This document shows, in pieces, positions 39,195 to 50,328 of a DNA stretch of 51,096 nucleotides. Position numbers and translations under genes: made by a program. How positions within the stretch are numbered: position 1 is the stretch's first letter; the number at the start of each line of letters is the position of its first letter. The DNA comes from Clostridia bacterium (GTDB lineage Bacteria > Bacillota > Clostridia > Oscillospirales > CAG-272), in contig JAFXAC010000091.1 of the NCBI GenBank assembly GCA_017522125.1, positions 1 to 51,096 on the forward strand, in the 5' to 3' direction. The notes beneath the pieces were generated by a model, which was not told the DNA's origin, searched no databases, and was given only the letters and a program-made list of their open reading frames with translations.

Positions 39195-39447
39195 TAATTT
39201 CAAAATCAAACGCAATGACGGAAAATGCGTAAGTGAAAAGCGTTTCAGAGAGCCGACGGCAGCTGTGAGTCGGTACGCGGACACGGTACGCTCTCATTCC
39301 CGAGTGGGACATCTGAAAAGGGTGTCACGGATGCCACCGTTACAGGGCAGGGAGCTGTTAGGCTCTTGTAAAAGAGGTCGCGCAAGCGGCAATCTGGGTG
39401 GTACCGCGGTTTTTATCGTCCCTGAAGCATGGCTTCGGGGGTTTTTT
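39195..39447 (+). promoter_or_regulatory. T-box leader (probably Leu)
   Basis: A tRNA-sensing leader. Stem I is closed by TTTCAGA (39243-39249) and TCTGAAA (39312-39318). It contains GAGAGCC and a small GC-rich hairpin as in the distal part of T-box Stem I. The diagnostic T-box sequence TGGGTGGTACCGCGG is at 39395-39409. The terminator CCCTGAAGC/GCTTCGGGG with a T tract is at 39420-39447. Uncharged cognate tRNA would bind and allow read-through. A CTC triplet followed by A (about 39292-39295) is a possible Leu specifier; the alignment is by eye and tentative. Confidence 0.93.
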
Positions 39448-39502
39448 GTTTTTTACGGCACTCCCGCAAAATTTAGAAAATATTTTAAGAGAGGTTCTGA
39501 CT

Positions 39503-40915
39503 ATGAACGCAAACGCAAGAAGGATCAAAATATCTGACGCTACTATTCGCCTCGGCGCTATGGGCTATACCTTTAAGGAAAAGCTTGAGGTGCTTCGTAT
39601 GCTCGGCAGGATAGGCGTGGACATTATCGAGCTTGGCTCTATCAGCGAGACCGAGGCAAAGAGCGACGCGCTCCTTTACCGCACCGCGAGTGCGATCCTT
39701 GAGGGTTGCACCCTTTCCGTAAGCGTTGCCGCCGACAAGGCCGGCATCGACGCGGCTTGGGCGGCTATCAGCGGTGCAACGAATCCGCGCCTTTCGGTAG
39801 CTCTGCCCGTTTCCACCGTTCAGGCTGAATACGTATATCATAAAAAGCCCGAGGCTATGCTTCCCGTCATCAGCGACACCGTCGCATACGCCAAGAGCCT
39901 TGGTGCAGAGGTCGAGTTCCGCGCGCTTGACTCCACGAGGTGCGACCTTGACTACCTCATCGCCGCATCCGAGGCGGCAGCCGCCGCGGGAGCGTCCGTC
40001 ATCACCGTTTGCGACACCGCGGGCGAGTCGCTCCCACACGAGATAGGCGCTATCGTTTCCGCCCTGCGCGGCGCAGTTGCGGGCGTGAGCATCGGTATTG
40101 AATGCTCCGACGCTATGGGACTTGCCAACGCCGCCGCACTTTCCGCTATCTCCGCGGGCGCTGACGAGGTCAGCACCGTGTTCTGCCGCGGCGGAGCTTC
40201 CGTTTGCGACCTTGCCGCCGCTATCGCGATAAAGGGCGGCGCGATGGGCGTAAGTCTTGGCATTGACACCACCAAGCTTTCCAGCACCGCTGACAGAGTT
40301 TCTCACCTTTCGGGCGACCGCCACGGCAAGAGCGTAAAGAGCGTGGTTTCCGCCTACGACGACAGAGAGATACCCACCGACGCCGACATTATCACCGTTG
40401 GCGAGGCAGCCGCCGCTATCGGCTACAGCCTTACCGAGGACGATAGGGCAAGAGTTTACGAATCGCTCCACCGCCTTGGCGAAAAGACGGGCAGAAAGAG
40501 CATCACCACACGCGAGCTTGACGCGATAATTGCCGCCGACGCTTTGCAGGTGTCCCCCACCTACCGCCTTGTTTCCTACCTTATCAACAGCGGAAACACC
40601 ATTACCGCCACCGCACAGATCACCCTTGACAAGAACGGCGAGCTGATGACGGGACTTTGCGCGGGCGACGGTCCTATCGACGCCGCCTTCCGCGCTATCG
40701 AGCAGATACTCGGATACCACTACGAGCTTGACGATTTCCGCATCAGCTCCGTTACCGAGGGCAAGGGCGCAATGGGCGACGCGCTCATCCGTCTGCGCTA
40801 CGAGGGCAAGCTCTATTCGGGCAGGGGACTTTCCACCGACATCATCGGTGCGTCCATCAGAGCGTACGTCAGCGCACTCAATAAGATCGTGTACGATCAG
40901 AATAACTCAAAGTAA
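39503..40915 (+). CDS. LeuA-like protein lacking catalytic and metal residues
   Basis: A 470-residue protein with the 2-isopropylmalate synthase layout: an N-terminal TIM barrel (about 1-270), a linker region and a C-terminal LeuA regulatory domain (about 365-465; MTGLCAGDGPIDAAFRAIEQ, then GKGAMGDALIRLRYEGK and GRGLSTDIIGASIRAYV). Family catalytic signatures are lost. The RDGEQ motif is RLGAM (about residue 17). The metal-binding HxH segment is ECSDA (about 201). The GERAGN loop is replaced by CRGGAS. Classical LeuA chemistry is therefore unlikely. It is probably a leucine-binding regulator, a subunit or an enzyme of altered chemistry (inference). The start at 39503 follows AAGAGAGG. First gene behind the T-box; the next gene follows after 16 bp. 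Confidence 0.88.
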   Translation: MNANARRIKISDATIRLGAMGYTFKEKLEVLRMLGRIGVDIIELGSISETEAKSDALLYRTASAILEGCTLSVSVAADKAGIDAAWAAISGATNPRLSVALPVSTVQAEYVYHKKPEAMLPVISDTVAYAKSLGAEVEFRALDSTRCDLDYLIAASEAAAAAGASVITVCDTAGESLPHEIGAIVSALRGAVAGVSIGIECSDAMGLANAAALSAISAGADEVSTVFCRGGASVCDLAAAIAIKGGAMGVSLGIDTTKLSSTADRVSHLSGDRHGKSVKSVVSAYDDREIPTDADIITVGEAAAAIGYSLTEDDRARVYESLHRLGEKTGRKSITTRELDAIIAADALQVSPTYRLVSYLINSGNTITATAQITLDKNGELMTGLCAGDGPIDAAFRAIEQILGYHYELDDFRISSVTEGKGAMGDALIRLRYEGKLYSGRGLSTDIIGASIRAYVSALNKIVYDQNNSK

Positions 40916-40931
40916 TTAAGAGGGATATCCT

Positions 40932-43466
40932 ATGAAACTTTCACTTTCGACTAACGGCTGGGAGCAATACGGCTGGGACGGGCTTTTCGAGGCCTTCCGT
41001 GACGCAGGGCTTGAGGGCATCGAGCTTCACGGAATAACCTCGCCCGAGCTGTCGGGCGCGGGCAAGCCGTTTTCCACCGAGAATATAAAGACCACCGCAC
41101 GCCGCTTTTCCGACGTGGGAATCGCGGTAAGCTGCGTTGACTCGCTTTCCGACGTTTCGCAAAGCGACCCCGACGCTATCGACTCCGCGATATATGAAAT
41201 TGAGGAATGTATACTTGCCGCGCACGATCTGCGTTGCAGATTCGTAAGACTTCACGCCTTTGGCGAGGACAAGGGCGAGGCTACCGATGCCGCCGTGCGC
41301 CGTATGATAATGCGTCTGCTCGGCACGGCTGTGAAGATGGGCGTTACTCTGCTCGTTGAAACTGCGGGCATTTACGCCGACACGGAAAGGCTTTGCGAGC
41401 TGCTTAATTCCTTTGCGTCCGACAACGTCGGTGCGCTGTGGGATATGCACCATCCTTACAGATATTGCGGCGAGGACCCCGAGGTGACCATTCAGCGTCT
41501 TGGCGCGTACGTCAAGCACGTCCACATCCGCGATTCCGCAAAGAATGCGTCGGGGGAGGTGGAGTTCTGCCTTATGGGCGACGGAGATCTTCCCGTTGCC
41601 GAGATGCTTGACGCGCTCGATTCCGTCGGCTACGGCGGCTATATTAGCTACGAATGCGACAAGGGCGTTATCGAGGACTTTGGCGCGGCGGACATCGTTC
41701 TGCCCCATTTCGTCAGCTATATGCAGAAATTCGGCAAAAGCTCCTCGGCTAAAAAGTCCCGTCTGCCCGAAAACCGTTCGAGAACGGGCCGCTTCGTCTG
41801 GCCGAAGAACGAGCTTATCGACCTGACATTCCCGCAGGTGCTTGACCGTATGGTAGAGGAATTCCCCGACCAGCTTGCGTTCAAGTACACAACTCTTGAC
41901 TATACTCGCACCTACTCGCAGTTCCGCGACGACGTGGATAATTTTGCGCGCGCGCTCATCGCTATGGGCGTTGGCGTGGGCGACCACGTTGCTATCTGGG
42001 CGACCAACGTCCCCGCGTGGTTCATCACCTTCTGGGCGGCGACGAAGATAGGCGCGGTGCTGGTTACCGTAAATACCGCTTATAAGATACACGAGGCGGA
42101 ATATCTGTTCCGTCAGTCCGATACGCATACGCTCGTTATGGTCGAAAGCTGCCGCGATTCCGATTATCGCGCTATCATCAACGAGATATGCCCCGAAATC
42201 GCTTCCACTCCCTCGGGTCAGCCGCTTCACTGCAAGAGACTTCCGTTCCTTCGCAACGTCGTTACCGTCGGCTTTTCGATGGCGGGCGGCGTGACTCTTG
42301 AGGAGGCTATGCGAATGGGCGAGAGCGTTCCTGCCGAGGAGGTATCAAGGCGCGCCGCCGCCGTCCGTCCCGACGACGTTGCAAATATGCAGTACACGTC
42401 GGGTACTACGGGCTTCCCCAAGGGCGTTATGCTCACGCACCGCAATATAGTCAATAACGGCAAATGTATAGGCGACAGAATGGACCTTTCCACCGCCGAC
42501 CGTATGATGATACAAGTGCCGATGTTCCATTGCTTCGGAATGGTGCTGTCGATGACGTCGTCAATGACGCACGGCGCAACGCTCCTTCCGATGCCGTATT
42601 TCAGCCCCAAATCCTCGCTTGCCTGCGTTCAGGCGGAGCGCATAACCGTGTTTAACGGCGTTCCTACGATGTTTATTGCAATGCAGTCGCACGCGGACTT
42701 TGCAAAGACCGATTTTTCGTCCGTCCGCACGGGCATTATGGCAGGCTCTAACTGCCCTGCCGACCTTATGCTCAGCGCGACCAAGACGATGAATATGAAG
42801 GAGATAATAAGCGTCTACGGTCAGACCGAGGCGTCGCCCGGCTGTACTATGAGCTGTGTTGACGATCCTCTTGAGGCGCGTGTGGGTACCGTTGGTCACG
42901 CCTTCCCGAACGTCGAGTGTAAGATAATCGACCCCGAAACGGGAGAGGACCTGCCCGACGGCGAGAACGGCGAGTTCGTTGCGCGCGGATATAACATAAT
43001 GAAGGGCTATTACAAGATGCCCCGCGCAACTCGTGAGGCAATTGATAGCGACGGTTGGCTCCACACGGGCGACATCGCCTGCCGCGATGCCGACGGAAAC
43101 TACCGCATCACGGGCAGACTTAAGGATATGATAATCCGCGGCGGCGAGAACATCTACCCCCGCGAGCTTGAGGAATTCCTCTTTACGCACCCCAAGGTCA
43201 GCGACGTTCAGGTCGTCGGCGTTCCCGACAAGAGATACGGCGAGGAATGTATGGCTTGGGTAATTCCGAAGGAGGGCGAGGAGCTTACTCCCGAGGAGCT
43301 TCGCGAGTATTCGCTTGAGAGAATGGCGCGTCACAAAGTGCCGAGATACATTCACATCTGCTCAAGCTTCCCGATGAACGACGCGGGCAAGATACTCAAG
43401 TACAAGATGCGCGAGTGGGGCGCCGAGATGATAGCAGACCCCGAAAATCCCCTCTCCAAGCAGTAA
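40932..43466 (+). CDS. Fusion of sugar-phosphate-isomerase-like TIM barrel and AMP-forming acyl-CoA ligase
   Basis: One uninterrupted 844-residue frame. Residues 1-275 form a xylose-isomerase/AP-endonuclease-2-type TIM barrel with the usual metal residues: Glu in VETAG (about 143), Asp in WDMHHPY (about 171), His in KHVHIRD (about 197) and Glu in SYECDKG (about 241). A polar linker (SSSAKKSRLPENRSRTG) joins it to an acyl-adenylate-forming domain (about 293-844). That domain carries YTSGTTGFPKGVMLTH (about 487), YGQTEASPG, LHTGDIACRDADG (about 709), GRLKDMIIRGGENIYP and the catalytic Lys in AGKILKYKMR (about 817). The ligase half looks like medium-chain FadD-type enzymes. Both halves keep their key residues, so both may be active. 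The pairing is unusual. Probably in the T-box operon; ilvE next has its own promoter. Confidence 0.9.
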   Translation: MKLSLSTNGWEQYGWDGLFEAFRDAGLEGIELHGITSPELSGAGKPFSTENIKTTARRFSDVGIAVSCVDSLSDVSQSDPDAIDSAIYEIEECILAAHDLRCRFVRLHAFGEDKGEATDAAVRRMIMRLLGTAVKMGVTLLVETAGIYADTERLCELLNSFASDNVGALWDMHHPYRYCGEDPEVTIQRLGAYVKHVHIRDSAKNASGEVEFCLMGDGDLPVAEMLDALDSVGYGGYISYECDKGVIEDFGAADIVLPHFVSYMQKFGKSSSAKKSRLPENRSRTGRFVWPKNELIDLTFPQVLDRMVEEFPDQLAFKYTTLDYTRTYSQFRDDVDNFARALIAMGVGVGDHVAIWATNVPAWFITFWAATKIGAVLVTVNTAYKIHEAEYLFRQSDTHTLVMVESCRDSDYRAIINEICPEIASTPSGQPLHCKRLPFLRNVVTVGFSMAGGVTLEEAMRMGESVPAEEVSRRAAAVRPDDVANMQYTSGTTGFPKGVMLTHRNIVNNGKCIGDRMDLSTADRMMIQVPMFHCFGMVLSMTSSMTHGATLLPMPYFSPKSSLACVQAERITVFNGVPTMFIAMQSHADFAKTDFSSVRTGIMAGSNCPADLMLSATKTMNMKEIISVYGQTEASPGCTMSCVDDPLEARVGTVGHAFPNVECKIIDPETGEDLPDGENGEFVARGYNIMKGYYKMPRATREAIDSDGWLHTGDIACRDADGNYRITGRLKDMIIRGGENIYPRELEEFLFTHPKVSDVQVVGVPDKRYGEECMAWVIPKEGEELTPEELREYSLERMARHKVPRYIHICSSFPMNDAGKILKYKMREWGAEMIADPENPLSKQ

Positions 43467-43549: not shown

Positions 43550-44614
43550 ATGGAAATCAAGATTACAAGAACTACAACTCCCAAGGCAAAGCCTGCAAAG
43601 GGTCAGGCTCTTGGCTTTGGCAAGATCTTTACCGATCATATGTTTATGATGAACTACACCGAGGGCAAGGGCTGGCACGATGCCAGAGTAGAGCCCTTCC
43701 ACAATATCGAGCTGTCCCCCGCCTGCGTGGTATTCCACTACGGTCAGGAGATGTTCGAGGGACTTAAGGCTTACCGCGGCGTTGACGGCAAGGTCCGCCT
43801 TTTCCGCCCCGAAATGAACGCTCGCCGCACTAATGCGTCCAACAAGCGTCTTTGCATTCCCGAGCTTCCCGAGGAGATGTTCGTCGAGGCTGTTCGCGCG
43901 GTAGTTGACGTTGACGCGGATTGGATACCCACCGACGACGGTACGTCCCTCTACATTCGTCCCTTCATCATCGGTACGGATGAATTCCTCGGCGTTGCGC
44001 CCTCCAAGACCTACCTTTTCTGCATCATTCTTTCTCCCTCGGGCGCGTACTACGCAGACGGACTTAAGCCCGTTGGTATCTGGATCGAGGACGATTACGT
44101 AAGAGCAGTTCGCGGCGGAATGGGCTTTGCAAAGACGGGCGGTAACTACGCTTGCTCCCTTGCGGCTCAGGTAAAGGCGCACGACGACGGATATTCTCAG
44201 GTGCTTTGGCTCGACGGCGTTGAGAGAAAGTACATTGAGGAGGTCGGTGCTATGAACATCTTCTTCAAGATCGGCGGCAAGGTAGTAACTCCTATGCTCA
44301 ACGGCTCAATTCTGCCCGGTATCACCCGTGACAGCGTTCTTACGCTCTGCCGCGCGTGGGGACTTGAGGTTGAGGAGCGCAAGATATCCGTTGACGAGCT
44401 TATCGAGGCTCAGAAGAACGGCACTCTTGAGGAGGTATTCGGAACGGGTACTGCCGCAGTTATCTCCCCCGTTGGCAAGCTCCGCTACGTTGACGAGGTA
44501 ATGACCATCGGCGACGGCTCTATCGGTCCTCTCAGCCAGAAGCTCTACGACACCGTAACGGGTATCCAGTGGGGCAAGGTAGAGGACAATATGGGCTGGA
44601 CTCAGACCGTATAA
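43550..44614 (+). CDS. ilvE: Branched-chain amino acid aminotransferase
   Basis: A 354-residue PLP enzyme of fold type IV, in the longer BCAT form. MFEGLKAYRGVDGKVRLFRP marks the N-terminal domain. GFAKTGGNYACSLAAQ holds the PLP-binding Lys (about residue 194). EEVGAMNIFF and FGTGTAAVISPVG bind the cofactor phosphate and substrate. It interconverts Leu/Ile/Val and their 2-oxoacids with glutamate. AAGGAG lies before the ATG. It lies between the T-box genes and a 2-oxoacid oxidoreductase that would use the same 2-oxoacids. Its stop (TAA) is followed after one base by the next start. Confidence 0.95.
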   Translation: MEIKITRTTTPKAKPAKGQALGFGKIFTDHMFMMNYTEGKGWHDARVEPFHNIELSPACVVFHYGQEMFEGLKAYRGVDGKVRLFRPEMNARRTNASNKRLCIPELPEEMFVEAVRAVVDVDADWIPTDDGTSLYIRPFIIGTDEFLGVAPSKTYLFCIILSPSGAYYADGLKPVGIWIEDDYVRAVRGGMGFAKTGGNYACSLAAQVKAHDDGYSQVLWLDGVERKYIEEVGAMNIFFKIGGKVVTPMLNGSILPGITRDSVLTLCRAWGLEVEERKISVDELIEAQKNGTLEEVFGTGTAAVISPVGKLRYVDEVMTIGDGSIGPLSQKLYDTVTGIQWGKVEDNMGWTQTV

Positions 44615-44615
44615 T

Positions 44616-45332
44616 ATGAAGTCGATACTCAAAAGAGAAGCCAGAGTGACGCTTTTCGCGGGACACTACGGAAGCGGAAAAAGCACGGCGGCAATAGCGT
44701 TTGCCGCCGCGCTCCGCGCCGCGTTCCCCGACGAGCCCTTGGCTCTTGCCGACCTTGATATAGTAAATCCGTATTTCCGCACCACCGACTCGGCAGAGCT
44801 TCTTCGCTCGCTTGGGGTGGAGATGGTAGCGTCGGATTTTGCAGGCACTAACGTGGACGTTCCCGCGCTCCCCGGTGCGGCGTACTCGATAACCGAAAGG
44901 CGCGACGTGCGCGCCGTTATCGACGTTGGCGGCGATGACCGCGGCGCGCTTGCGCTCGGTCGATACGTTCCCGCCCTCAAGGAGGAGGGAAGCTACGATA
45001 TGCTTGCGGTCATAAGCCCCTACCGCCCGCTTACGCGCACCGTCGCGGACACCGTGGAGGTGCTTCGCGAGATAGAGGCGGCGTGCGGCTTGGCTTTCAC
45101 GGCGATACTCAATAATCCCGCGCTCGGCGCAAACAGCACCGCCGACAGCGTGGTGGCGGCAACGCCCTACGCGCTCGGAGTTGCCGAGGCTATGGGCATT
45201 CCCGTGGCGTTCACGATGGCAAGGGAGGACCTTTGCGACGAGCTTAAAAAAAGAAGCTCCGAGCTGCCTGCCGAGGGGCTTTTGCTACCGTTCAGCCATA
45301 AAATCGCCCACGGCGGCATAGTAAACGGGTAA
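44616..45332 (+). CDS. P-loop ATPase (ParA/MinD/CobQ-like)
   Basis: A 238-residue P-loop protein. Walker A is GHYGSGKST (about residues 16-24). ALADLDIVNPYFRT recalls the switch region of SIMIBI-class ATPases. VIDVGGDDRGALALG provides a Walker-B-like Asp. A role in metal-centre or cofactor delivery to the neighbouring oxidoreductase is possible (inference). There is one base between the ilvE stop and this start, so translation is coupled. A terminator follows. Confidence 0.8.
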   Translation: MKSILKREARVTLFAGHYGSGKSTAAIAFAAALRAAFPDEPLALADLDIVNPYFRTTDSAELLRSLGVEMVASDFAGTNVDVPALPGAAYSITERRDVRAVIDVGGDDRGALALGRYVPALKEEGSYDMLAVISPYRPLTRTVADTVEVLREIEAACGLAFTAILNNPALGANSTADSVVAATPYALGVAEAMGIPVAFTMAREDLCDELKKRSSELPAEGLLLPFSHKIAHGGIVNG

Positions 45333-45450: not shown

Positions 45451-45660
45451 ATGGTAAAAATCAGCTTCAGAACCGACAGATGTAAGGGCTGCGGACTTTG
45501 CGTTACCGCCTGCCCCAAAAAGCTGCTCGCTATGGACAGCGAGAAGATAAACGCGCAGGGCCATCACCCTGCCACCATCACCGACGCATCCGCTTGCGTA
45601 GGCTGCGCTTCCTGCGCACTTATCTGCCCCGATTGCGTCATTACGATAATCAAGGAATAA
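45451..45660 (+). CDS. 2[4Fe-4S] ferredoxin-type delta subunit of 2-oxoacid:ferredoxin oxidoreductase
   Basis: A 69-residue protein with two cluster motifs, CKGCGLCVTACP (about residues 12-23) and CVGCASCALICPDC (about 50-63). It carries electrons between the thiamine-diphosphate site and external ferredoxin. It is the first of four subunit genes with gaps of 12-15 bp. A GAAAGGG ribosome binding site is seen. Confidence 0.93.
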   Translation: MVKISFRTDRCKGCGLCVTACPKKLLAMDSEKINAQGHHPATITDASACVGCASCALICPDCVITIIKE

Positions 45661-45672
45661 AGGAGAAAGAAA

Positions 45673-46734
45673 ATGGCAGAAAAGGTACTTATGAAGGGTA
45701 ACGAGGCTATTGCCGAGGCTGCTATTGCCGCAGGCTGCCGCCATTATTTCGGTTACCCCATCACCCCCCAGACAGAGATAGCTGCATATATGGCAAAGCG
45801 TATGCCCAAGATAGGCGGCGTTTTCCTTCAGGCAGAAAGCGAGGTTTCAGCCGTTAATATGGTCATCGGTGCGGCTTCCGCAGGCGTGCGCGTTATGACC
45901 TCCTCCTCCTCCCCCGGAATATCCCTTAAGAGCGAGGGTCTTTCCTACATGGCAGGCTGTGACCTGCCCGCCCTCATCGTCAACGTACAGCGCGGCGGCC
46001 CCGGTCTTGGCGGTATCCAGCCCTCTCAGTCCGACTATTTTCAGGCTACCCGCGGCGGCGGACACGGCGACTATCATATGCTCGTTCTCGCTCCCAACTC
46101 CGTTCAGGAGATGGCACAGCTGACCATTCAGGGCTTTGCCCTTGCCGAGAAATACCGTATGCCCTGTATGCTTCTTGCCGACGGTACTATGGGACAGATG
46201 ATGGAGCCCGTTGAGCTTCCCGATTCCGCACCCGAAATGGCTGAAAAGCCCTGGGCACTTACGGGCACGGGACTTTCCCGCAAGCACAATATCATAAACT
46301 CCCTCTCTCTTACTCCCGACGAGCTTGAGAGATGGAATATCGACAGATATGCAAGATACGCAAAGGTAGAGGCTGACGAGGTAATGTACGAGGAGTATCT
46401 TACCGAGGACGCCGACGTTTGCGTCGTTGGCTACGGAATCGCCGCAAGAGTTGCGCGCAACGCCGTTAACGCCGCACGCGCCAAGGGCATCAAGGCGGGA
46501 ATGTTCCGTCCCATCACTCTTTGGCCCTTCCCGAAGGCAGCGCTTAACAAGCTCGCTACCACCTGCCGTGCGTTCATTTCCGTTGAGCTTTCTATGGGAC
46601 AGCTTATCGAGGACGTTGAGCTTGCAATCCGTTGCAGCCGCCCCGTAACTCTTTGCAACCGCACGGGCGGTATGATACCCTCACCCGAGCAGGTGCTTGC
46701 CTCTATCGAGGAAGCCGCCGCAAAACTTAACTAA
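45673..46734 (+). CDS. vorB: 2-oxoacid:ferredoxin oxidoreductase alpha subunit (VorB type)
   Basis: A 353-residue subunit with the pyrimidine-binding fold: MKGNEAIAEAAIAAGCRHYF, then GYPITPQTEIA, with the conserved Glu in QAESEVSAVNMVIGAA. TSSSSPGISLKSEGLSYMAG and GGPGLGGIQPSQSDY follow. Domain II is near the C terminus (MFRPITLWPFP, FISVELSMGQLIEDV). With the beta, gamma and delta subunits it oxidatively decarboxylates 2-oxoacids to acyl-CoA, or carboxylates acyl-CoA with reduced ferredoxin. The nearby ilvE favours branched-chain 2-oxoacids; 2-oxoglutarate is the main alternative. Confidence 0.93.
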   Translation: MAEKVLMKGNEAIAEAAIAAGCRHYFGYPITPQTEIAAYMAKRMPKIGGVFLQAESEVSAVNMVIGAASAGVRVMTSSSSPGISLKSEGLSYMAGCDLPALIVNVQRGGPGLGGIQPSQSDYFQATRGGGHGDYHMLVLAPNSVQEMAQLTIQGFALAEKYRMPCMLLADGTMGQMMEPVELPDSAPEMAEKPWALTGTGLSRKHNIINSLSLTPDELERWNIDRYARYAKVEADEVMYEEYLTEDADVCVVGYGIAARVARNAVNAARAKGIKAGMFRPITLWPFPKAALNKLATTCRAFISVELSMGQLIEDVELAIRCSRPVTLCNRTGGMIPSPEQVLASIEEAAAKLN

Positions 46735-46748
46735 GGAGGACGCAGAAA

Positions 46749-47498
46749 ATGGCAGTTGTATTTGAAAGACCCCACGCACTTACCGACGTACCCATGCACT
46801 ATTGCCCCGGCTGCGGACACGGTATAATCCACCGCCTCGTTGCAGAGGCTATCGACAGCCTCGGTATCGAGGGCAAGACCATTGGCGTTGCCTCGGTAGG
46901 TTGCTCGGTATTTTCCTATAACTACTTCAACACCGATATGGTTCAGGCGGCTCACGGCCGCGCTCCCGCCGTTGCTACGGGCGTAAAGCGCGCTAACCCC
47001 GAAAACGTCGTTTTCACCTATCAGGGTGACGGCGACCTTGCCGCTATCGGTACTGCGGAGACGGTTCACGCCGCCGCAAGAGGTGAAAATATCACCATTA
47101 TCTTCGTAAATAACGCAATTTACGGTATGACGGGCGGTCAGATGGCTCCGACCTCTCTGCCCGGTCAGATCACGCAGACCTCGCCCTACGGACGCGACGT
47201 CAACACCGTCGGCTATCCCGTAAAGGTCAGCGAGATGCTCTCTCAGCTTGACGGCGCGGCTTACATCGAGCGCGTTGCCATCAACAACACCAAGAACATT
47301 CGCGCCGCCGCAAAGGCAATAAAGAAGGCGTTTACTTATCAGACCGAGGGCAAGGGATTTACTCTTATCGAGGTAGTTTCCACCTGCCCCACCAACTGGG
47401 GACTTACTCCCGAAAAGGCTATGGGCTGGCTTGAGGAGAATATGCTTCCTTACTATCCTCTCGGCGTTTACAAGGACAAGTACGCCGACAAAAACTGA
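46749..47498 (+). CDS. 2-oxoacid:ferredoxin oxidoreductase beta subunit (thiamine diphosphate binding)
   Basis: A 249-residue subunit. It has CPGCGHGIIHRLVAEA and VGCSVFSYNYFNTDMVQAAHGRAPAVATG. The thiamine-diphosphate/Mg motif is GDGDLAAIGTAE, then NNAIYGMTGGQMAPTS. It forms the active site with the alpha subunit. The order delta-alpha-beta-gamma with short gaps shows one operon. An AAGGAGG ribosome binding site lies upstream. Confidence 0.94.
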   Translation: MAVVFERPHALTDVPMHYCPGCGHGIIHRLVAEAIDSLGIEGKTIGVASVGCSVFSYNYFNTDMVQAAHGRAPAVATGVKRANPENVVFTYQGDGDLAAIGTAETVHAAARGENITIIFVNNAIYGMTGGQMAPTSLPGQITQTSPYGRDVNTVGYPVKVSEMLSQLDGAAYIERVAINNTKNIRAAAKAIKKAFTYQTEGKGFTLIEVVSTCPTNWGLTPEKAMGWLEENMLPYYPLGVYKDKYADKN

Positions 47499-47513: not shown

Positions 47514-48050
47514 ATGACTAAGAATATTCTTATTGCGGGCTTTGGCGGACAGGGTGTGCTTTTCACGGGTAAATTCATCGCCTACGGCGCACTCATCGAG
47601 GGTAAGGAGCTTAGCTGGCTCCCCTCCTACGGCCCTGAAATGCGCGGCGGAACGTGCAACTGCTCCGTTATCGTAAGTGACGAGCCCGTAGGCTCTCCCA
47701 TCGTTAACGAGCCCGACGTGCTTATCGCTATGAACCGTCCCTCGCTTGACAAGTTCGAGGACGCGGTAGTTCCCGGCGGCGATATTTATATCGACTCCTC
47801 TCTCGTTGACAGAGAGGTTCGCCGTACCGACGTAAACGTTCACTATATCCCCGCTACCCGCCTTTCCACCGAGCGCGGCTTTGACGGTATCGCTAATATG
47901 ATACTCCTCGGCAGCGTTATCAAGGGAAGCGGCGTTATCAAGGAGGAAACTATCCCCGCGGCTATGTCGAAGGTAGTTTCGGCAAAGCGTCAGAATCTTT
48001 TTGATTTCAACATCCGTGCGCTTGCGCTTGGCGCGGAAGTGCTTGAATAA
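47514..48050 (+). CDS. 2-oxoacid:ferredoxin oxidoreductase gamma subunit
   Basis: A 178-residue subunit typical in length. It has [20 protein letters not shown] at the start, [20 protein letters not shown] and [17 protein letters not shown]. It completes the four-subunit enzyme and contributes to CoA binding. It is followed after ten bases by the XRE-cupin gene. Confidence 0.94.
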
Positions 48051-48060
48051 TAGGTGAAGT

Positions 48061-48624
48061 ATGGCTAAAACACATTCCGACGAGCTTCGCGAGATAGCCG
48101 CACGTCTTCGCGATATGCGCGAGATATGCGAGATATCCGAGGCGGAAATGGCGCAAAGGCTTGGCGAGACGCTTGAGGATTATCAGTCCTACGAGCGCGG
48201 TGAAAAGGATTTTCAGATAAGCTTTCTTTGCGAGGCGGCAAATATCCTCGGCATCGACGTGCTTGACCTTATGAGTGGCACGTCCCCGACGCTTTCCGTT
48301 TGCACCGTCGTTAAAAAGGGTCAGGGCTTTAACGTTGACCGTAACAGCGCGTACAAATACAAGCATCTTGCGTTCCCCTTCCGTAACAAAAAGGCAGAGC
48401 CCTTCCTCGTTACCGTTGAGCCTAACGACAGCGTTCCCGCGCTCAACTCGCACCCAGGTCAGGAATTTGACTATATGGTTTCGGGCGCGATGAAGCTCTT
48501 TATCGGCGAGGAGGAGTATCTTCTTGAGGCGGGAGACAGCGCTTATTTCGATTCCTCAACTCCCCACGCGCTCAAGGCAGTAGGCGATACCGCCGCAGAA
48601 TTTTTGGCAATAGTTATCAAGTAA
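48061..48624 (+). CDS. XRE-family regulator with cupin domain
   Basis: A 187-residue protein: helix-turn-helix at about residues 8-68 (MRDMREICEISEAEMAQRLG region) and a C-terminal cupin barrel (about 110-185; NSHPGQEFDYMVSGAMKLFI, then YLLEAGDSAYFDSSTPHALK). Cupins in such regulators bind a small ligand. Its place between the oxidoreductase and an acyl-CoA ligase suggests it senses a substrate of this pathway and controls the operon (inference). Confidence 0.92.
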   Translation: MAKTHSDELREIAARLRDMREICEISEAEMAQRLGETLEDYQSYERGEKDFQISFLCEAANILGIDVLDLMSGTSPTLSVCTVVKKGQGFNVDRNSAYKYKHLAFPFRNKKAEPFLVTVEPNDSVPALNSHPGQEFDYMVSGAMKLFIGEEEYLLEAGDSAYFDSSTPHALKAVGDTAAEFLAIVIK

Positions 48625-48633
48625 GGACGAAAA

Positions 48634-50328
48634 ATGGCTATTTATGAAAAATATCTGGGGCGCTCGCGGGACAGCTTTTCCTCGCTGAAGGACGCGCAGG
48701 AGAACCTGCGCCTTTCCTGCCCCGACGATTTTAATTTCGCGTATGACGTTATCGACGAGCTTGGCAGGACCAAGCCCGACAAAACGGCTATGGTCTGGGT
48801 ATCAAAGAATTGGGAGGAGAAGATAATCAGCTTCTCCGAGCTTTCGCGTGAGTCCGACCGCGCCGCCGCGTTCCTTTACGGGCTCGGCATTCGCCGCGGT
48901 GACAGGGTCCTGCTCGTTCTGAAGCGTCACTACTATTTCTGGTATCTGCTCCTCGGTCTGCACAAGATAGGTGCTGTCGAGGTACACGCAACCGCTATGC
49001 TCACGGCAAAGGACTACGTTTACCGTTGCAACGCCGCAAAGGTCAAGGCGGTAGTGCTTTCGTGCGACGACGGCTGTACCGAGCATTTTGACGGCGGCAA
49101 CGGCAAGTACGAAACGGTCGAGCATCGCTTCGTCATCGGCGGCAACGCCCCCGACGGCTGGCGCGATTTCAACGCCGAGTTTGAGTCGACTCCTGCCGAG
49201 TGGAAAAAGCCCGATTACCTTTCGGATTTCTCCGCCGACGAAACGATGATGCTTTGCTTCTCGTCGGGAACGACGGGCTACCCCAAGCTCATCTCCCACG
49301 ATTACCGTTATCCCCTCGGTCACATTATGACGGGCGTTTTCTGGCACCGTTGCGTTGACGGCGGACTTCACCTGTCCGTTTCCGACACGGGCTGGATGAA
49401 GGCGTTCTGGGGCAAGATGTACGGTCAGTGGTTTGCCGAAAGCGCGATAATGGTATACGATTTTGACCGCTTTAACGGCGACGATATACTTAAAATAGTG
49501 GAAAAGTACAAGGTTACTACCTTCTGCGTTCCCCCCACTATGTACCGTATGATATTACTTAAGGACGTCGAGAAATACGACCTTTCCTCGCTTACGCATT
49601 GTTGCACGGCGGGCGAGGCGCTCGGCCCCGAAATTTACAACGAGTGGCTCACTCGCACGGGACACAAGATATACGAGGGCTTCGGACAAAGCGAAACTCC
49701 CGTTATCATTGCATCTCTTGCGCCCTATACCGAGCCCGTTCCCGGTGCGGCGGGACTTCCCGTTCCGGGATATGACGTTCAGATAGTGGACGAGGATTGC
49801 AACCCTTGTCCGCGCGGTGTGAACGGCGAGATATGCGTCCGCGTGGACAGCATAGCAACGCGCCCCTACGGTCTGCTTTCAAGCTATAATTTCAACGAGG
49901 AGGAAACTGCCAACGCCTACCGTGACGGCTTTTATCACACGGGCGACATCGCCTACCGCGATGAAAAGGGTATGTTCCGCTACGTTGGACGAAACGACGA
50001 TATAATCAAATCGTCGGGCTACCGTATAGGTCCGTTTGAGATAGAGTCGGTCATGATCGAGCATCCTGCGGTGCTTGAGGTCGCAGTTACGGGCGTTCCC
50101 GACGCTCTGCGCGGCTTCCTCGTCAAGGCGACGGTCGTTCTGCGCGAGGGCTTTGCTCCCTCGGACGAGCTTGTAAAGGAGCTTCAGAACTACGTCAAGG
50201 TCAATACCGCACCCTATAAGTACCCCCGAATTATCGAATTTGTTGACGCGCTTCCCAAGACCTTCAGCGGCAAGATACGCCGCACGGAGATACGCCAGCG
50301 CGACGCAGAGAAATATGCGAACAAATAA
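48634..50328 (+). CDS. AMP-forming acyl-CoA synthetase (acetyl/medium-chain type)
   Basis: A 564-residue adenylate-forming enzyme of normal length. Motifs: CFSSGTTGYPKLISHD (about residues 207-222), YEGFGQSETPVI, YHTGDIAYRDEKG, VGRNDDIIKSSGYRIGPFEI, and KTFSGKIRR with the catalytic Lys (about 551). It resembles ACSM-type ligases for short or medium, including branched, acids. It would activate a free acid to acyl-CoA, the substrate or product of the preceding oxidoreductase. It starts ten bases after the regulator gene. Confidence 0.93.
   Translation: MAIYEKYLGRSRDSFSSLKDAQENLRLSCPDDFNFAYDVIDELGRTKPDKTAMVWVSKNWEEKIISFSELSRESDRAAAFLYGLGIRRGDRVLLVLKRHYYFWYLLLGLHKIGAVEVHATAMLTAKDYVYRCNAAKVKAVVLSCDDGCTEHFDGGNGKYETVEHRFVIGGNAPDGWRDFNAEFESTPAEWKKPDYLSDFSADETMMLCFSSGTTGYPKLISHDYRYPLGHIMTGVFWHRCVDGGLHLSVSDTGWMKAFWGKMYGQWFAESAIMVYDFDRFNGDDILKIVEKYKVTTFCVPPTMYRMILLKDVEKYDLSSLTHCCTAGEALGPEIYNEWLTRTGHKIYEGFGQSETPVIIASLAPYTEPVPGAAGLPVPGYDVQIVDEDCNPCPRGVNGEICVRVDSIATRPYGLLSSYNFNEEETANAYRDGFYHTGDIAYRDEKGMFRYVGRNDDIIKSSGYRIGPFEIESVMIEHPAVLEVAVTGVPDALRGFLVKATVVLREGFAPSDELVKELQNYVKVNTAPYKYPRIIEFVDALPKTFSGKIRRTEIRQRDAEKYANK

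Follow-up and report, generated by a model that had tools for sequence, protein, structure and literature searches.

Results

Organization of the pLeuA locus

The window (the whole stretch of DNA analysed, 51,096 nucleotides) contains a gene of the 2-isopropylmalate synthase (LeuA) superfamily, here called pLeuA, preceded by a T-box leader and followed by an apparent operon with these features:

39206 to 39426, plus strand: T-box leader with leucine specifier CUC (Rfam RF00230, 98.4 bits, gathering threshold 93)
39503 to 40915, plus strand: pLeuA, a LeuA-derived pseudoenzyme of 470 aa (Pfam, NCBIfam, alignment and AlphaFold2 model)
39515 to 40318, plus strand: degenerate TIM barrel of pLeuA, residues 5-272 (D17L, H200E, H202S, GER deleted)
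40502 to 40888, plus strand: LeuA_dimer leucine-binding domain of pLeuA, residues 334-462 (PF08502, 109.3 bits; leucine-pocket positions)
40932 to 43466, plus strand: fusion of a TIM barrel (AP_endonuc_2) and an acyl-CoA ligase, 844 aa, the proposed isovalerate-CoA ligase, here called TIM-ligase (Pfam; AMP-binding motifs)
43550 to 44614, plus strand: branched-chain amino acid aminotransferase, BCAT (NF009897, 502.6 bits, cut-off 307)
44616 to 45332, plus strand: P-loop protein of 238 aa, family unknown (no Pfam or NCBIfam match)
45451 to 45660, plus strand: VorD-like ferredoxin subunit, 69 aa, with two CxxCxxCxxxCP-type clusters (read from the sequence; name inferred)
45673 to 46734, plus strand: VorB, 3-methyl-2-oxobutanoate:ferredoxin oxidoreductase subunit (NF005507, 534 bits, cut-off 399)
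46749 to 47498, plus strand: oxidoreductase TPP (beta) subunit (Pfam TPP_enzyme_C; PorB/KorB-type models below cut-off)
47514 to 48050, plus strand: gamma-like subunit, 178 aa, with a GFGGQGV motif (read from the sequence; name inferred)
48061 to 48624, plus strand: HTH-cupin regulator-like protein, 187 aa (read from the sequence and from the fused domains of relatives)
48634 to 50328, plus strand: second acyl-CoA ligase, 564 aa (Pfam AMP-binding)

The operon genes all lie on the same strand as pLeuA with short gaps between them, and bring together an acyl-CoA ligase, a 2-oxoacid:ferredoxin oxidoreductase and a BCAT; in other pLeuA loci the genes for the last two enzymes often lie elsewhere. 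As far as these gene assignments go, the operon encodes the enzymes needed to take an acid through its acyl-CoA and 2-oxoacid to an amino acid. VorB of the operon is the only VorB match in the genome.

Two of the accessory genes have relatives worth recording. Most loci with a VorB gene also encode the 238-aa P-loop protein beside it. In relatives of the last two genes (L038, 1831-4128; L098, 768-3155), the HTH, cupin and AMP-binding domains form one protein of 760-800 aa, often present as two in tandem; these fused proteins join a transcription-factor-like domain to a CoA ligase, and the window keeps two separate genes (48061-50328).

A leucine T-box precedes pLeuA

The initial annotation had placed the gene under T-box control, and the Rfam match listed above bears this out. 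A hairpin followed by a T run can be read directly from the sequence at about 39421-39453. Twenty-five family leaders were aligned, of which one (L062, 6846) was excluded as an additional T-box that does not immediately precede pLeuA; the specifier is CUC in 23 of the remaining 24, the window included, and CUG in the other. Among 107 loci with sufficient sequence upstream, a wider motif search recovered the T-box core in 76, of which 70 have a leucine codon (CUC in 54, CUG in 16). A locus counted here as soon as one candidate triplet in the expected region was a leucine codon, and the 24-leader alignment is the cleaner evidence. The motif was not found in the other 31 of the 107 loci, although at least one of these, L055 (the same as L028), has a T-box by Rfam. 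Unlike the window, five loci of the same genus (L005, L006, L007, L009 and L010) gave no T-box upstream of pLeuA up to an E-value of 0.01.

Catalytic residues are lost across the family

Pfam divides pLeuA into an HMGL-like domain (residues 8-266, 1.3e-30) and a LeuA_dimer domain (334-462, 1.6e-31). Its best NCBIfam matches are 2-isopropylmalate synthase models, with scores of 182-266 bits against cut-offs of 517-748, and no isopropylmalate synthase equivalog cut-off was reached, the best being 265.8 bits against 532; the leuA_bact model TIGR00973 gave 238 bits (cut-off 598.7). When pLeuA is aligned with eight LeuA proteins of related genomes, RDGEQ is seen to have become RLGAM, with L17 in place of the aspartate of RDG, HCH to have become ECS (E200 and S202 for the HxH pair), and GERAGN to be deleted. 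These replacements agree with the earlier description, which somewhat understated the loss, since the subdomain I motifs HESGIHQHG, TYEIM and GKHSGRHA are deleted from the linker as well. The residue list for Mtb LeuA, in the portion of the source available (PMC2704214), assigns the lost motifs to metal and substrate ligands and to the likely acetyl-CoA groove.

The four LeuA metal ligands (Asp, His, His and Asn, equivalent to Mtb D81, H285, H287 and N321) were then scored over 110 distinct pLeuA members, 113 sequences minus three genes reached twice; counts of pocket residues, subdomain I residues (Mtb H379 and Y410), pairwise identity, T-box motifs and barrel conservation use all 113. None of the four metal ligands is kept in 99 members, the window protein among them, one is kept in 10, and two in a single member, while 10 of 10 LeuA controls keep all four. 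GER of GxGERxG is gapped in 110/110, and the subdomain I columns, which would contact acetyl-CoA, are gapped in all or nearly all. Recurrence of the losses in 110 distinct homologues, set against intact controls, places them beyond chance. No replacement metal motif, and no new His/Cys/Asp set, is conserved in the pLeuA barrel in the family alignment, and the suggestion that shifted residues supply the metal ligands, which would have refuted the initial reading, was rejected.

One protein, in L173 (6821-8260), has more LeuA residues left than the other members: R and E are still present in the first motif, as is the E of EDATR, whereas HxH is gone. From its sequence it looks like a possible evolutionary intermediate. 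Within the barrel, E109, K115, D143 and R146 are kept in 113/113 members. K115 is T or S in LeuA, and the conserved barrel residues are mostly inherited from LeuA; a residual pocket or unknown activity built on these four residues is possible.

By descent pLeuA belongs to the LeuA superfamily, but by the features tested it is no functional LeuA. The family-wide loss of catalytic residues led us to reject an identity as ordinary LeuA, and sequence evidence makes it almost certain that pLeuA is not an isopropylmalate synthase. Both its status as a pseudoenzyme and its link to leucine are well supported.

The leucine-sensing domain is conserved

Leucine-pocket positions were taken from published Mtb LeuA residues, again from the accessible part of that report (PMC2704214), and correspond in pLeuA to I392, D393, L409, F412, S416, A423 and G425. 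Across the family the pocket residues are much as in LeuA, and together with the PF08502 match they confirm the well-kept C-terminal regulatory domain first noted. At the equivalents of Mtb 558 and 565, pLeuA has S/A and A, whereas CimA has V/I and mostly T. An isoleucine sensor of the CimA type was rejected on this account, since the pocket is LeuA-like and unlike CimA at both positions.

Constraint on the two parts of pLeuA is the reverse of that in LeuA. On average, pLeuA barrels are 0.404 identical in pairwise comparison and pLeuA sensors 0.659; the corresponding LeuA means are 0.548 and 0.402. Median dN/dS is about 0.11 for the barrel and 0.037 for the sensor (32 close pairs each, some with dS nearly saturated), and both parts are under purifying selection. 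The AlphaFold2 model of pLeuA (mean pLDDT 88, pTM 0.58) has the fold of LeuA (3eeg_B, Z 38.1, with 264 residues superposed at rmsd 1.4). Against leucine-bound LeuA (3fig_A) the model gave Z 31.0 and rmsd 11.9 over 376 residues, and the placing of its two halves is uncertain.

pLeuA forms a single clade with a near-invariant partner

A full-length or split pLeuA relative was found in 36 of 98 related genomes (E < 1e-80) and, in an even draw of the class, in 26 of 293, after one apparent carrier (G418) was dropped as a canonical LeuA (787 bits). In a scan of public genomes the best 80 loci all have pLeuA; 78 of these are from Bacillota, mostly Clostridia, and by record titles most come from gut and rumen samples. 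The two records outside Bacillota belong to Eggerthellaceae and Salinivirgaceae. The latter (L138) is a MAG assigned to Bacteroidota whose pLeuA locus falls amid Clostridia relatives, and it may be a mis-binned contig. A figure of 589 public-genome relatives was rejected as a count, since true LeuA proteins match one of the search patterns as well.

In a tree of 56 proteins, the 38 pLeuA included (of 113 sequences) group together as a single clade with SH-aLRT 100, which has a long stem and stands next to type I LeuA. Of 112 loci, 111 have TIM-ligase immediately downstream of pLeuA in the same orientation; the exception (L150) stops at a contig edge. The two genes overlap by 4 nt in 45 loci. 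The partner also follows pLeuA in 11/11 further loci; by contrast, a canonical leuA locus (L165) has no TIM-ligase neighbour. The check suggested in the initial annotation, whether this clade is conserved beside the fusion gene, came out positive.

The TIM part of TIM-ligase is xylose-isomerase-like. Mean identity within the family is 0.742 for the ligase part and 0.426 for the TIM part, and the AMP-binding motifs and the C-terminal Lys are invariant in 20 aligned members. Two TIM-domain residues that we take to be metal ligands are less constant, E143 being kept in 64/98 relatives and D171 in 62/98. The TIM domain of the window (40932-41786) retains its putative ligands, and about a third of the 98 relatives have lost E143 or D171. 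The nearest solved ligases are varied acyl and aryl enzymes; the substrate cannot be read from the sequence, and isovalerate is inferred. The model of the fusion is poor (mean pLDDT 74, pTM 0.44). No natural fusion of pLeuA to the ligase was seen among the open frames, where the longest pLeuA frame has 561 aa. A conserved ligase and a conserved leucine sensor, with two faster-changing barrels between them, form the pattern that we would expect if the barrels transmit a signal.

LeuA, LeuB and LeuC are absent from the nearest carriers

No LeuA, LeuB or LeuC was found in the window genome, which is 92% complete, and this answers the question of a separate true LeuA raised by the initial annotation. 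The remaining HMGL-like genes of this genome resemble those for a Re-citrate synthase and a carboxyltransferase subunit. The same genome has ilvA, ilvB, ilvC and ilvD in one cluster (L164, contig C16): the valine and isoleucine pathways are kept and the leucine branch is lost.

Over 96 related genomes, LeuA of either type is present in 0/36 pLeuA carriers versus 50/60 non-carriers (Fisher 1.3e-17, or 3.4e-14 when the window's genus is collapsed), although shared ancestry of the genomes makes these p-values optimistic. LeuB over cut-off follows the same pattern (0/36 versus 41/60), as does LeuC (0/36 versus 38/60), which was called at 520 bits or more; matches near 370-410 bits lie mostly in frames of 640-720 aa and look like aconitase. 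VorB is commoner with pLeuA (30/36 versus 31/60; it was not found in six of the 36 carriers), and IlvC is rarer (6/36 versus 31/60). The LeuA/B/C, ilv and VorB searches did not cover two of the 98 genomes, G059 and G097, and LeuA-like matches exist in G059.

Replacement of LeuA by the pLeuA route is not universal. A true LeuA also occurs in 4 of the 25 carriers from the rest of the class and in 7 of 50 named carriers, a test that took in 50 of the 80 named loci and relied on a PF08502 search, to which a LeuA lacking that domain would be invisible. In an Eggerthellaceae genome (L109; L158, 4563-13117) the gene order is pLeuA, TIM-ligase, LeuC, a gap where LeuD would fit, LeuA and LeuB. Because this leucine operon holds the pLeuA-ligase pair, the pair is tied directly to leucine.

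Discussion

Our analysis computed directly the catalytic loss, the kept pocket, the gene pair, the T-box specifier, the absence of LeuA, LeuB and LeuC from the window genome and its nearest carriers, and the downstream operon. That pLeuA serves leucine supply is highly probable, and that isovalerate is a route to leucine here is likely, the substrate being inferred in the absence of labelling data. On balance, though without great confidence, we favour the reading that pLeuA is the leucine-sensing feedback subunit of an isovalerate-CoA ligase and that leucine is made from isovalerate; the substrate, leucine binding, the physical complex and the direction of control are all inferred.

Under this proposal, uncharged tRNA-Leu would open the operon through the T-box at leucine shortage. 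TIM-ligase would convert isovalerate, the inferred substrate, to isovaleryl-CoA, to which the four-subunit 2-oxoacid:ferredoxin oxidoreductase would reductively add CO2 to give 2-oxoisocaproate, and the aminotransferase would then yield leucine, bypassing LeuABCD. Excess leucine is presumed to bind the regulatory domain of pLeuA, whose degenerate barrel may pass the signal to the fused TIM barrel and slow the ligase; both complex formation and inhibition are inferences. In this way the sensor of the lost route would exert end-product control over the opening step of the new one. Evidence for a physical complex is confined to the pairing of pLeuA with its partner, since only gene pairing and overlap were seen.

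The initial annotation had offered two readings, a leucine-sensing pseudoenzyme that controls a partner, or an enzyme with new chemistry. The former is supported by the family-wide loss, the pocket, the constraint on the sensor, the partner, the T-box and the 36 nearest carriers without LeuA/B/C, with leucine binding and control of the partner remaining inferred. The latter, in which pLeuA would carry out metal-independent chemistry on an acyl-CoA or 2-oxoacid in series with TIM-ligase, is disfavoured but not excluded, and we consider it improbable. Purifying selection on the barrel and its four invariant residues, K115 among them, speak for such an activity, but conservation is lower in the barrel than in the sensor, opposite to LeuA, the conserved barrel residues are mostly inherited, no new conserved metal set is seen, the acetyl-CoA-contacting subdomain is gone from all or nearly all members, and the known route from acyl-CoA to leucine requires no extra step. 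The claim that pLeuA is merely a decaying leuA pseudogene can draw on the free drift of catalytic residues among members; it was rejected on the barrel dN/dS and is already refuted, the 110 distinct members, the single clade in the tree of 38, the conserved partner and, in most, the leader leaving it virtually no room.

It is also conceivable, if unlikely, that pLeuA senses leucine but acts on the oxidoreductase, a transporter or gene expression, or that it only stabilises the ligase as a scaffold. Retention of the sensor domain fits the other targets, and the frequent loss of putative metal ligands from the ligase TIM domain is compatible with a structural pair. However, the ligase is the one near-invariant neighbour, whereas genes for the oxidoreductase and BCAT frequently lie elsewhere, and a pure scaffold would have no need of a leucine pocket. 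Isovaleryl-CoA can prime iso-fatty acids, and the pair might make it mainly for iso-branched lipids or for catabolism, with leucine as a cross-signal. We regard this as quite improbable, since a leucine T-box switches genes on at leucine shortage, BCAT and the oxidoreductase share one apparent operon, the pair and LeuA/B/C exclude each other among relatives, and the Eggerthellaceae pair sits in a leucine operon.

A fuller account, which could go either way, is that these Clostridia, on giving up LeuABCD in favour of isovalerate carboxylation, kept the valve of the abandoned pathway, whose first enzyme lost its chemistry and became a leucine-sensing pseudoenzyme wired to an acyl-CoA ligase with a partly degenerate, docking TIM barrel; the pair would then supply the genes and the point of control hitherto lacking for a 60-year-old isovalerate-to-leucine route in gut bacteria. 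If so, a feedback sensor would clearly have survived the loss of its enzyme and been rewired to a non-homologous one, with end-product control as a module that outlives its pathway. Annotation would be corrected where weak isopropylmalate synthase matches can yield wrong calls of leucine prototrophy, and prediction of gut bacteria that rely on their neighbours' branched-chain fatty acids would be aided. A concrete candidate operon and regulator for the isovalerate route can now be tested in vitro. A full-text literature search, which left most subscription papers out of scope, found no account of a pseudo-LeuA, of a leucine T-box on such genes or of genes for the isovalerate route.

Carboxylation of isovalerate to leucine by rumen bacteria is on record, as cited in the accessible part of a later article (PMC7356843, citing Allison and co-workers 1962, 1966). 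The pLeuA operon shares with that route the proposed substrate, CO2 addition, transamination and habitat, but the same search found neither genes nor a feedback subunit for it. CimA, the isoleucine-sensing relative, has the superfamily and the type of regulatory domain in common with pLeuA, which differs in its leucine-type pocket at the Mtb 558/565 equivalents and in having no catalytic residues. With LeuA itself (TIGR00973; DRE-TIM metallolyases), pLeuA shares fold, domain order, the leucine-binding dimer domain and leucine-linked regulation, but it is without the metal ligands, GERAGN and the acetyl-CoA subdomain, and it is paired with a CoA ligase. A further parallel is HisZ of ATP-phosphoribosyltransferase, a pseudoenzyme regulatory subunit in which the dead paralogue of one enzyme controls another in an amino-acid pathway, as we propose for pLeuA; unlike HisZ, however, pLeuA would be the dead first enzyme of the abandoned route to the very amino acid concerned, and would have an acyl-CoA ligase as partner.
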